A stretch of 64,000 nt of DNA from Vulcanisaeta moutnovskia 768-28 (GTDB lineage Archaea > Thermoproteota > Thermoprotei > Thermoproteales > Thermocladiaceae). The stretch's first letter is position 1, and each line of letters opens with the position of its first letter. The stretch spans positions 1,550,001-1,614,000 of the forward strand of contig NC_015151.1 of NCBI RefSeq assembly GCF_000190315.1, given 5' to 3'. This document shows positions 14,847-36,580 of the stretch, one piece after another. Under the pieces are notes generated by a model. The model was given only the letters and a program-made list of their open reading frames with translations, had not been told where the DNA came from and ran no database searches. Both the position numbers and the translations under genes were made by a program.

Positions 14847-15073
14847 CAGCCATACACCCAGCCACGGCATAACTCCCCTTCTGTACCATTCGTCTAAGGC
14901 CCTACCCGGACCTCACCCGTGGAGATCACAGGTCCCTATTTGGGCCATTATCCCCTGACGACCTCTCGGTCGGCGGGTTGCCCCGCGGGGATCCACGGTA
15001 TTGTGGGGAAGTTTCCTCAGGCGAGCCGTTGCCGGGCTCGCCCGGTTATTGGCCGTGGCTGGGTGTATGGCCG
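14847..15073 (-). ncRNA. rnpB: RNase P RNA, reduced (type T-like)
   Basis: Read on the minus strand, the RNA is closed by a perfect 20-bp P1 (15052-15071 with 14849-14868). It contains the CR-I core GAGGAAACUUCCCC and near the 3' end the CR-IV/V core AGACGAAUGGUACAGAAGG followed by GGAGUUAUGCC. The two cores pair as P4, AACU-CCCC with GGGGAGUU, with one unpaired U, the bulge conserved in all RNase P RNAs. Between the cores is a 7-bp stem (CCGUGGA/UCCACGG) enclosing two hairpins with GCAA and GAGA loops; only a short remnant is seen where the specificity domain should be. A TATA box (15096-15105) is 23-32 nt upstream. The length of about 225 nt fits the minimised form of Thermoproteaceae. Confidence 0.88.
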
Positions 15074-34019: not shown

Positions 34020-34260
34020 ATGGCATCACGATGGTACGCCAGGGCTGAGCGATATAGGGCATTAAGTCAGGACATGCTCAGTAGGGGCTTTTATCCAGAG
34101 TGCCCCGTTTTCCCGCATCCCTGCGATTCAAATCATTGTTCATCCTTCGTCGGGTCTTTGCCCCATCCTCGGGGTGTCATCTTATCACGTGCCCACGGGG
34201 CTGGGGCCGGTGGGTTCATTGCCTTTCGCTCCCACCGCCGGCTTATCAGGGGTGTTTTTT
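34020..34260 (-). ncRNA. GC-rich structured RNA with a TnpB-like 3' tail (omegaRNA-like remnant)
   Basis: This stretch is far richer in G+C than its surroundings and full of inverted repeats: CGGTGGG/CCCACCG, CCCC/GGGG, GGGGC/GCCCC and CTGAGC/GCTCAG. On the minus strand a frame ending at 34185 reads a Pro/Gly-rich tail (TPDKPAVGAKGNEPTGPSP) of the kind that ends many archaeal TnpB proteins, and the structured RNA follows directly. That is the layout of a TnpB guide RNA, which overlaps and extends the tnpB 3' end. The rest of that tnpB is missing. It may be a relic scaffold or a surviving RNA. Another structured RNA class is possible. Confidence 0.42.
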
Positions 34261-34321
34261 GCTAATTTATAAGCTTTTTGTTAGCAAAAGGTTTAAATAA
34301 TAGTTTGGCTAAACCCTCCTA

Positions 34322-34486
34322 ATGGCGAGGGTGTATACGGTCTTTGGTACTGTGATGGTTGACCAGAGGAAGCACGGCTACGAGTACTTGAAGATATGGA
34401 TTGGGAATAAGCCAGTGTTGAAGGAGCTGGTTGGGAAGAGGGTCATTGTGATCGTGGTGGTTCCAGATGAGGAGGTTAGTTCATAG
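34322..34486 (+). CDS. Small protein encoded ahead of, and overlapping, the TnpB-like gene
   Basis: 54 residues, starting at an ATG that has AAGGTTTAAATAA about 20-34 nt upstream, so it has its own promoter. It is predicted mostly beta-strand (VYTVFGTVMVD, YLKIWIG, KRVIVIVVVP), somewhat like an AbrB or OB-type mini-fold. Its last 20 nt overlap the start of the TnpB-like gene, so translation is coupled. The function is not recognised; it could regulate the downstream protein or bind its nucleic acid. Confidence 0.6.
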   Translation: MARVYTVFGTVMVDQRKHGYEYLKIWIGNKPVLKELVGKRVIVIVVVPDEEVSS

Positions 34487-35573
34487 AACCCTTTTGATTA
34501 AGAGACCACTGAGACTCTTCAGCGCCGAGGAGCAGGATGCCTTAGTTAAGGTGCTTAACCGTGTTGATGCTTTAGGTAATTTGTGGGCTAGGGGGTTTGA
34601 GGTCTATCCCGTGGATTTAGACTCAAGGTTTGTTGACAAATTCAACTACTTTAAGAATGAGTTAAAGCTCGTTAACGCAAAGAGGTGGTTGGCTAGGGTT
34701 CACGCAATATTTAATGTCAGTGTGAGGTTCACTAACGAGCGTGATATGGGTCAAGGCGTCTTCATTGACTTGACCAGGAATGCCCTAAGGCTTAGGTGGG
34801 TTATCAAGGGGAGGGCCATTGTTATTCAACTAACCCCCAGCGAGGTGAAGTACATTAAGGAGAGACTTAGCGAGGGTGGCAAGCCTAAACTAGCCAGGGC
34901 CTGGGTCGATGGCGAGAATCTGTACATAGCCATAACTTTCGAACGTGAAGTTGAGCCGATTAAGCCGAGCAACTATAGGCTAGTTATTGATGTGAACTCG
35001 TGGAAGAATGGCATTGTTTGGGCATTAATCAATGGTGGAGTGGGCTCAATGGGTAGGGAGAGACCAGACCTAGGTTACATTGAAATGCTTTACAACCATG
35101 TGACTATGCTTGAGCATAAATACGGCACTTTAAGGAGACTTGGCATGCATAAGTCCCTCTATGGGAAGAGATTGTGGAGGGAGATTAAGGCCACTAGGCG
35201 TAGGCTATACGCCTATATTAGGGACTTCGCGCAGAAGGCGGCCCACAAGTTGGTTATGAAGGCTTTGAAGTACAGGGCTATGGTGGTTATTGATGACGTG
35301 ATTGAGGAGTCCAGAAGGGAGTTAATGGAGGAGAAGCTACCCAATGGGTTGGCCAAGGCCTATGTGCTCTACCTGAGGCGTTTCGTGAAGCTTCTAACGA
35401 ATCAATTAGCCTGGTACGGTATTCCCTACGAGTTCAAACGCCTACCAAGCACAATATGCCCAGTTTGTGGTAATGAACTGACACAATTACCCAATAGGGT
35501 AATGCAATGCCCAAAATGCGGATTCAAAGCAAACAGAGATGAAATACCAATAAAATGGGCACTCCTACATTAA
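34467..35573 (+). CDS. TnpB-like RuvC protein with altered catalytic site
   Basis: 368 residues. The C-terminal half is TnpB-like: RuvC-I LVIDVNSWKNGIVW (about 172-185), the RuvC-II region AMVVIDDVIEES (about 270-281) and a zinc ribbon CPVCG...CPKCG (about 331-352) followed by RuvC-III FKANRDEIPIK. In canonical TnpB, RuvC-II has a catalytic Glu (IVVEDL type) and RuvC-III reads DRDxxA; here the Glu position appears to be Asp and the last motif is changed. No GC-rich guide RNA follows its 3' end. It may be a catalytically weakened or repurposed TnpB. It has no TnpA next to it. Confidence 0.72.
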   Translation: MRRLVHRTLLIKRPLRLFSAEEQDALVKVLNRVDALGNLWARGFEVYPVDLDSRFVDKFNYFKNELKLVNAKRWLARVHAIFNVSVRFTNERDMGQGVFIDLTRNALRLRWVIKGRAIVIQLTPSEVKYIKERLSEGGKPKLARAWVDGENLYIAITFEREVEPIKPSNYRLVIDVNSWKNGIVWALINGGVGSMGRERPDLGYIEMLYNHVTMLEHKYGTLRRLGMHKSLYGKRLWREIKATRRRLYAYIRDFAQKAAHKLVMKALKYRAMVVIDDVIEESRRELMEEKLPNGLAKAYVLYLRRFVKLLTNQLAWYGIPYEFKRLPSTICPVCGNELTQLPNRVMQCPKCGFKANRDEIPIKWALLH

Positions 35574-35608
35574 CATAAGGCTTAAGGCAACCATGAAGCT
35601 AGGCTTTA

Positions 35609-36115
35609 ATGAAGAGATACTCCAAGCCAAACTACATGCAGTGGCTTAGGGATAGGCGCATTTTGAGTAGGGTTGGGTGTTTCCACTCAAGGGCCAGGAG
35701 GACTGCAGTGTAGATTGTTAAGTACGCCAGGGAGAACCAGGCGTTAATCGTTAGGGAGGATTTGAATGGATTAATCAAGGCATTGAGGAGACTACCCAAG
35801 AACCATAGGGTAAAACTAATCATGCTTGGCTATGGGAGGTTGGCCTACTGGATTGACTGGGAGGCTGAAAAACACGGCATACCCATTAAGGTGGTTAATC
35901 CAAGGGGTACCTCAACCAAATGCCCAATGTGCGGAGTTAAAATGATTAAAGTTGGCTATAGGAGGCTCAAATGCCCAAGATGCAGATTCGAAGAGGATAG
36001 AGACGTAATCACCGTGATTAACCTATCAAAAATGGGGTCAATGACCAATGAAACCACGAGCAAGGGCAGGAACCACCCCCCAAAAAAAAGGAGGAGGTCA
36101 GAAAACAATATATAG
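35609..36115 (+). pseudogene. Second TnpB, 5'-truncated and interrupted by TAG
   Basis: One reading frame from 35609 to 36115 encodes the C-terminal part of a canonical TnpB: a helical segment with REDLNGLIKALRR (RuvC-II, the Glu-Asp-Leu motif), the zinc ribbon CPMCG...CPRC and RuvC-III EEDRDVITVINL. A TAG at 35711-35713 interrupts it, and no N-terminal half precedes it. Unlike the intact gene upstream it keeps normal catalytic residues. The piece is a decayed insertion; it also abuts the truncated HEPN gene. Confidence 0.8.
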
Positions 36116-36210
36116 GATTCAGGTACCCAGATGTTCGAATGCTTGATTATGATAAGGATGATGCCGAGGATTGTCTTAGATGTATGGAAATGGTGATGAT
36201 CTACGTCTAG
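36109..36210 (+). pseudogene. C-terminal remnant of a HEPN-domain toxin
   Basis: The frame from 36109 to the TAG at 36210 reads RYPDVRMLDYDKDDAEDCLR and then CMEMVMIYV, the typical end of small HEPN proteins (PD-x-Y-x-x-x-A-x-x-C/A-L...). The first two thirds, including the R-x4-6-H catalytic motif, are missing; TnpB remnant sequence lies there instead. The complete MNT nucleotidyltransferase partner follows 16 nt later. This is a broken HEPN-MNT toxin-antitoxin operon. Confidence 0.6.
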
Positions 36211-36226
36211 GGAGATACTCCTTAAG

Positions 36227-36580
36227 ATGCACCGTGAGATTGAGGAGTGGATAAGGGAGTTATGCGGTAAGGGTTACATAGTCGTATTATTCGGCTCGAG
36301 AGCTCGCGGTGAAGCCAGGATAGATAGTGACTGGGATTTATTGATCATTGGTGACAAGCCACCAACTGAACCGCCGAATGACCTAGCCCAGGTACATTAT
36401 GCCGATGAATTAACTGCCGAGGAGGAAATCAGGAACTTCAACACATTATTCCTCGACGCATTCTACGAGGGTAAATTACTGTGCGGTGACTCAGTGACAT
36501 TCAACAGACTAAAAGACCTAGTACTTAGCATCACAAGAGGTTTCCTAAAAACAAAAGATGGATGGATAAGGACAAGGTAA
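36227..36580 (+). CDS. MNT-type minimal nucleotidyltransferase (antitoxin of HEPN-MNT pair)
   Basis: 117 residues. The nucleotidyltransferase motif is complete: VVLFGSRARGEARIDSDWDL (G-S-x-R plus D-x-D), with a third acidic residue expected near EEEIRNFN. In HEPN-MNT modules the MNT protein neutralises the HEPN RNase, in studied cases by adding AMP to it. The HEPN gene upstream is reduced to its tail, so this antitoxin now has no partner here; it may persist by drift or protect against other HEPN proteins. Confidence 0.82.
   Translation: MHREIEEWIRELCGKGYIVVLFGSRARGEARIDSDWDLLIIGDKPPTEPPNDLAQVHYADELTAEEEIRNFNTLFLDAFYEGKLLCGDSVTFNRLKDLVLSITRGFLKTKDGWIRTR

Follow-up and report, generated by a model that had tools for sequence, protein, structure and literature searches.

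The locus examined here raises the question of where a TnpB-like protein with an unusual catalytic site would obtain its guide. It lies in a 64,000-nucleotide stretch (the window) of the single-contig genome of Vulcanisaeta moutnovskia 768-28 (NC_015151.1, 2,298,983 bases), which covers positions 1,550,001-1,614,000 and in whose numbering the coordinates below are given. Within it a 54-residue open reading frame (ORF) shares 20 nt with the start of a 368-residue ORF related to TnpB. A preliminary description, made from the window alone, had recognised this overlapping pair, the small ORF's own TATA box and an adjoining TnpB relic that retains 'EDL' and 'DRDV', and all of these are borne out. 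It had also noted that no guide-RNA-like structure follows the gene; this holds for the present copy but fails as a sign that there is no guide RNA, since an omega-RNA-like gene is found divergently upstream. From sequence comparison we consider it probable that the locus is a mobile element of the OMEGA (obligate mobile element-guided activity) type, with a separately and divergently transcribed guide RNA and a coupled small accessory protein. The coding side of the element has the following features.

34292-34300, plus strand: TATA-like box TTTAAATAA for the ORF pair, assigned from sequence, divergent from the RNA promoter.
34322-34486, plus strand: small accessory protein, 54 residues, beta-rich; a homologous small ORF stands at the TnpB-like start in relatives.
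34467-35573, plus strand: TnpB-like protein, 368 residues, with RuvC-I D175, RuvC-II D276, zinc ribbon C331/C334/C348/C351 and RuvC-III D358.

Comparison with the paralogues shows that identity starts abruptly at TGCCCC (34101) and stops within the gene's final codons. Between genera, identity over the upstream 105 nt is about 75-81%, above that of the proteins. The paralogue comparison found no conserved sequence or RNA structure past the last codons. A candidate downstream RNA at 35474-35700 gave a shuffle z of about -2, its structure is not conserved between copies, and it was rejected. The upstream region contains the features below.

34101-34245, minus strand: predicted omega-RNA-like gene of about 145 nt with its core at 34101-34205; it reads outward and reaches the boundary of the element at 34101 (98.6 bits with covariance model R1; covariation and strand test).
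34265-34273, minus strand: TATA-like box CTTATAAAT for the RNA, about 30 nt upstream of P1.
34208-34237, minus strand: hairpin P1 (CGGTGGG / CCCACCG), whose arms vary among copies with the pairing kept.
34195-34201, minus strand: GCCCCGU, the pseudoknot partner, located in the loop of 3-bp hairpin P2 (which corresponds to ISDra2 stem 1) and pairing with 34102-34108.
34102-34108, minus strand: 3'-terminal pseudoknot strand ACGGGGC, with compensatory changes in other copies, followed by -1A at 34101 and then flanking DNA.
34081-34100, minus strand: predicted guide CUCUGGAUAAAAGCCCCUAC, a putative 3' extension into flanking host DNA; this flank is different in each non-orthologous copy.

The folding energy of the upstream region was by itself equivocal on both strands, and comparative evidence decided the assignment. 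When the P1 arms are pooled over copies and read on the strand opposite the gene they comprise 112 Watson-Crick pairs, 13 G.U pairs and a single A.C pair, and this bias favours an RNA on that strand. The P2 loop, about 95-101 nt from the boundary, pairs with the last seven nucleotides ahead of the terminal A (-8 to -2), and the pairing is preserved by compensatory changes in copies L184 (GUCCCG/CGGGAC), L186 (GACCCC/GGGGUC), and L106 and L179 (GCCCCGC/GCGGGGC). Stems were parsed by hand and then tested by permutation. The summed pseudoknot pairing score of 477, against a permuted mean of 430, was reached in none of 2000 permutations, a value that is not a probability, as label shuffling ignores the relatedness of the copies; the L186 tail used in this test was taken from outside the model match. 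All 18 copies examined have a TATA-like box ahead of P1, at a distance of 18-36 nt that is mostly near 29 (usually 24-30), and the dual promoter region is A/T-rich and palindromic, as is also seen in relatives. No Rfam family matches the upstream RNA.

The topology of this RNA matches that of the ISDra2 omega-RNA, in which positions -5 to -3 form a pseudoknot with -105 to -103 in the stem 1 loop and -1A precedes the guide (PMC10097598). Here, too, a guide-adjacent pseudoknot, as found in IS200/IS605 TnpB-omegaRNA systems, is formed with the loop of a 5' stem, an A at -1 stands ahead of the boundary and the RNA ends at the element boundary; the 3' structure stops one nucleotide short of it, and the flanks beyond vary. 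This match is the main reason for reading the upstream RNA as an omega-RNA. The position of the RNA is different: in IS200/IS605 the omega-RNA is on the same strand as tnpB and overlaps both its 3' end and the right end of the element, whereas the RNA described here lies upstream on the opposite strand. The TnpB of ISFba1 (IS607) shares the fold and likewise has a structured RNA (the RAGATH-18 right-end element RNA) beside its gene, but that RNA is located downstream on the same strand (PMC11061315). Since both the RNA position and the D-E-D catalytic triad differ, the element does not belong to canonical IS200/IS605. In IscB and IsrB the guide RNA gene does precede the protein gene, but on the same strand and with a 5' guide, unlike the divergent RNA, presumed 3' guide and Cas12f-type zinc ribbon of the present system.

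Covariance model R1, built from 16 copies of the RNA, gives 29 matches in 14 of the 81 genomes of the class, 16 of them the training set and the remainder new. Of the 28 left-end or solitary loci, 17 have a gene for a TnpB-like protein, or its remnant, next to the RNA and always divergent from it; they occur in Vulcanisaeta, in Caldivirga and in two further lineages of Thermoproteales. One of the other loci has no more than a vestige of the small ORF, and the rest are solitary. The 29th copy is at the right end of an element in genome G054 and reads outward along the gene's direction. The copies in G065 and G069, which lie outside the training set, come from another family of the order. Pyrobaculum-type relatives have both flanks conserved across hundreds of bases, indicating that they sit in larger repeats and are therefore uninformative on the RNA. 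Four copies (L102, L104, L101 and L122) are internally deleted, with the RNA well preserved together with the last gene codons, and resemble miniature non-autonomous elements. The solitary RNA L186 (G044:C162, 331-460) carries an additional terminal hairpin followed by AAGGGGTCA, similar to the hairpin plus GGAGGTCA at the right ends of conventional TnpB elements of this genome.

The identification of the 368-residue protein as TnpB-like is confirmed by profile and structural comparisons. Pfam Cas12f1-like_TNB, the TNB zinc ribbon, matches above its cut-off (E=2.7e-9), and NCBIfam guided_TnpB matches at E=3.3e-11 but under that model's own cut-off. An AlphaFold model computed from the window protein and eight homologues (predicted local distance difference test, pLDDT, 85) has AsCas12f, ISFba1 TnpB (8iaz) and ISDra2 TnpB as Foldseek matches in the PDB, with template modelling (TM) scores of about 0.5-0.6. 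The protein thus has the split RuvC with TNB zinc ribbon and the fold of the TnpB / Cas12f superfamily, with the ribbon between RuvC-II and RuvC-III as in ISDra2 TnpB. Its catalytic residues depart from those of the superfamily: where ISDra2 TnpB has D191, E278 and D361 (PMC10097598), the 19 homologues compared here have invariant acids D175, D276 and D358, a D-D-D triad in place of D-E-D. In the profile-to-structure alignment D276 falls at the position of the catalytic Glu in TnpB structures, and D358 at that of the second Asp in the 'RD' motif, equivalent to ISDra2 D361. Of the two changes proposed in the preliminary description, the Glu-to-Asp substitution in RuvC-II is upheld, with no intact catalytic Glu nearby in the alignment to known TnpB proteins. 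The altered RuvC-III is not, because the catalytic Asp is the second D of 'NRD' and only the first, non-catalytic D of 'DRD' and the NAA tail are changed. Fanzor-like E-alt TnpB proteins, which also depart from canonical TnpB in RuvC-II, have their Glu six residues ahead of the first CxxC of the zinc finger (PMC10711439); an invariant Arg325 occupies that position in the 19 homologues. E281 is shared by ten closely compared proteins and not by all 19.

The ratio of nonsynonymous to synonymous substitution rates among the three copies in this genome and copy L088 of G041 is 0.10-0.15, which indicates that the TnpB-like gene is maintained, and the invariance of the three acids in 19 homologues marks the D-D-D site as a clade-wide trait under purifying selection and not a product of decay. 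A profile search of the GTDB contigs returned 13 matches and a single-protein search none; no homologue was found in viral contigs. Genome G065 holds about 24 TnpB-like matches, which are distant relatives and nearly all without the upstream RNA.

A real possibility, though not the one we would expect, is that the protein is an RNA-guided binder and not a cutter, with a D-D-D site lacking efficient cleavage, a ribonucleoprotein that occupies its target like Cas12m2 and TldR, and a small protein that modulates binding. The fixed substitution in all 19 homologues and the lack of an invariant substitute Glu, whether ahead of the zinc ribbon or at E281, are consistent with this. Cas12m2 (type V-M) also has Asp in the RuvC-II position, where it is too distant to coordinate the second Mg ion (PMC10442227), and for this reason weakened cleavage by the TnpB-like protein is possible by analogy. 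However, Cas12m2 has lost the first Asp too (an H-D-D triad) and works with a CRISPR RNA, whereas D175 and D358 are invariant here and the locus lacks a CRISPR array. That all three acids are strictly conserved points to catalysis by metal, or to metal binding at the least, and the mobility and variable flanks of the copies also speak against a dedicated binder. An arrangement of three parts, in which a D-D-D TnpB relative, a divergent omega-RNA and an obligate small subunit nick or tightly bind DNA with no double-strand cut, can be entertained only tentatively.

The small ORF adjoins all three copies in this genome. Each of the 12 full-length copies with the RNA that were examined has a similarly patterned ORF that runs into, or directly meets, the start of the TnpB-like gene; a few of these TnpB-like genes are frameshifted. 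It was not found ahead of the Pyrobaculum-type relatives, which carry no RNA. The small ORF is thus conserved with the TnpB-like gene in relatives, neither of the two refutations named in the preliminary description was borne out, and the comparison supports a translationally coupled, co-conserved pair. The sequence of the small protein diverges fast between copies. The 54-residue protein has no significant match in Pfam, NCBIfam or PHROG, and its model (pLDDT 62) was too weak for a fold search. DUF2080, a small protein associated with transposons, was considered as its identity and ruled out, as Pfam gave no match to it even with E values up to 10. The obligate coupled ORF distinguishes the element from ISDra2, as do the D-D-D triad and the absence of a transposase gene within the element.

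Copies occupy unrelated sites, several per genome, with differing guide-side flanks, and some are decayed or internally deleted. Six Vulcanisaeta genomes have the sequence of a HEPN gene without an element at the site of the window copy; this gene is intact in G051 and has small frameshifts in some of the other genomes. The composite element of the window interrupts the HEPN gene, with 181 bp of the target gone, and the insertion of copy L090 replaced about 163 nt. For the three copies of this genome, L090 and L102, comparison with empty sites gives an exact left boundary; the right sides are inexact, and no target duplication was seen at the empty sites compared. The right end comprises two features.

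35556-35561, plus strand: right-end sequence TGGGCA within the final codons, mirror of the left-end TGCCC; paralogue identity stops here.
35554-36103, plus strand: conventional TnpB, internally deleted, fused to the element's right end; the same right flank, with another left flank, is found in G041.

As the window and G041 copies have this fused, internally deleted TnpB in common and differ in their left flanks, the unit has moved together with it. The broken HEPN-domain gene and the intact nucleotidyltransferase (MNT) gene next to it (34020-34100 and about 36113-36211, with 36227-36580) are likely an MNT-HEPN toxin-antitoxin pair with a broken HEPN partner, the relatives being without the insertion. 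At the left flanks of L092 and L104, an inversion of the segment adjoining the element's left end sets the orthologous sites of G039 and G042 apart. Two copies in this genome (34162-34665 and G000:C1:1859350-1859860) are identical over much of the RNA, the promoter, the small ORF and the gene start and then diverge, which suggests recent recombination or gene conversion between them. Elsewhere in the window, at 14859-15061, a truncated-type archaeal RNase P RNA (RNaseP-T) is matched above the Rfam gathering score.

These ends allow another explanation, which we think unlikely: that the upstream motif is a mere transposition end whose hairpins act as DNA and have no RNA function, the guide RNA deriving from the gene's 3' end as usual. 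The left end and TGGGCA do make short terminal inverted repeats, and both ends are kept in internally deleted copies. In L090 (G054, 785-2385) two outward-reading RNA copies bound the element, forming a 19/20-bp inverted repeat with no target duplication. A compensated pseudoknot, the bias of G.U over A.C and a regularly spaced TATA box nevertheless fit a transcribed RNA, and the gene's 3' end has no conserved structure.

Several observations weigh against the OMEGA-type interpretation, in addition to the position of Asp in Cas12m2 and the limits of label shuffling given above. RNAalifold on the core alignment recovered little covariation, which is why the stems were parsed by hand, and support is weak for RNA stems beyond P1, P2 and the pseudoknot. 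No common transposon-associated motif (TAM) was present beside the junction in the five empty sites, each of which had also lost target sequence. Finally, the relative L091 has a conventional hairpin right behind its stop codon, so that a second, downstream RNA is possible there.

That the leftward RNA exerts regulatory or antisense control of element expression and is not a guide appears very improbable; the RNA and the ORFs have a promoter region in common, but the RNA does not overlap the ORF transcript and its structure sits precisely at the boundary of the element, like that of TnpB omega-RNAs. Least credible is the preliminary description's own proposal of a domesticated, nuclease-weakened archaeal regulator with a fixed target, resembling the TnpB-derived TldR proteins, which lost nuclease residues and sit in fixed contexts as expected of a fixed guide: purifying selection and an altered RuvC-II agree with it, and its atypical catalytic site and co-conserved coupled small protein stand, but the acidic triad is invariant and the copies are mobile, several per genome at unrelated sites, with differing guide-side flanks and some decayed or deleted.

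For the OMEGA-type element that we favour, the comparisons suggest the following mode of action. The divergent A/T-rich promoter region would drive two transcripts: a rightward one encoding the translationally coupled accessory protein of about 54 residues and the TnpB-like RuvC protein, and a leftward one giving the omega-RNA-like RNA of about 145 nt, with a pseudoknotted 3' end that extends to the boundary of the element. The leftward RNA would run on into host DNA and thereby acquire a flank-derived 3' guide, much as the guide of conventional TnpB is derived from the element flank (PMC8612924). The TnpB-like protein may bind this RNA via the guide-adjacent pseudoknot, and the ribonucleoprotein would be directed to targets that match the flank, namely the empty donor site, where conventional TnpB also acts, or sister copies, which would favour persistence of the element. 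The comparisons establish the fold of the protein and its conserved residues, the joint conservation of the three parts, the mobility of the copies and, for the RNA, its strand, its pairing and where its 3' end lies. We infer that the RNA is transcribed, bound and used as a guide, and that the D-D-D site cleaves rather than only binds its target.

We found no published description of a divergent omega-RNA in the literature searched, which took in open-access papers and a minority of preprints. Where descriptions of TnpB systems were found, the guide RNA is tied to the protein's gene, overlapping or following it on the same strand, and one TnpB is reported to excise its guide from its own mRNA (PMC10278001). 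If the proposed arrangement is correct, a divergent, independently promoted guide RNA would uncouple guide production from protein production, and separate guide transcription would account for the RNA-only and internally deleted copies. Such an arrangement resembles a step toward the separately transcribed guides of CRISPR systems. The small protein, being obligate, could serve as a protein cofactor of a TnpB, and the D-D-D site would allow a test of whether cutting needs the RuvC-II Glu.
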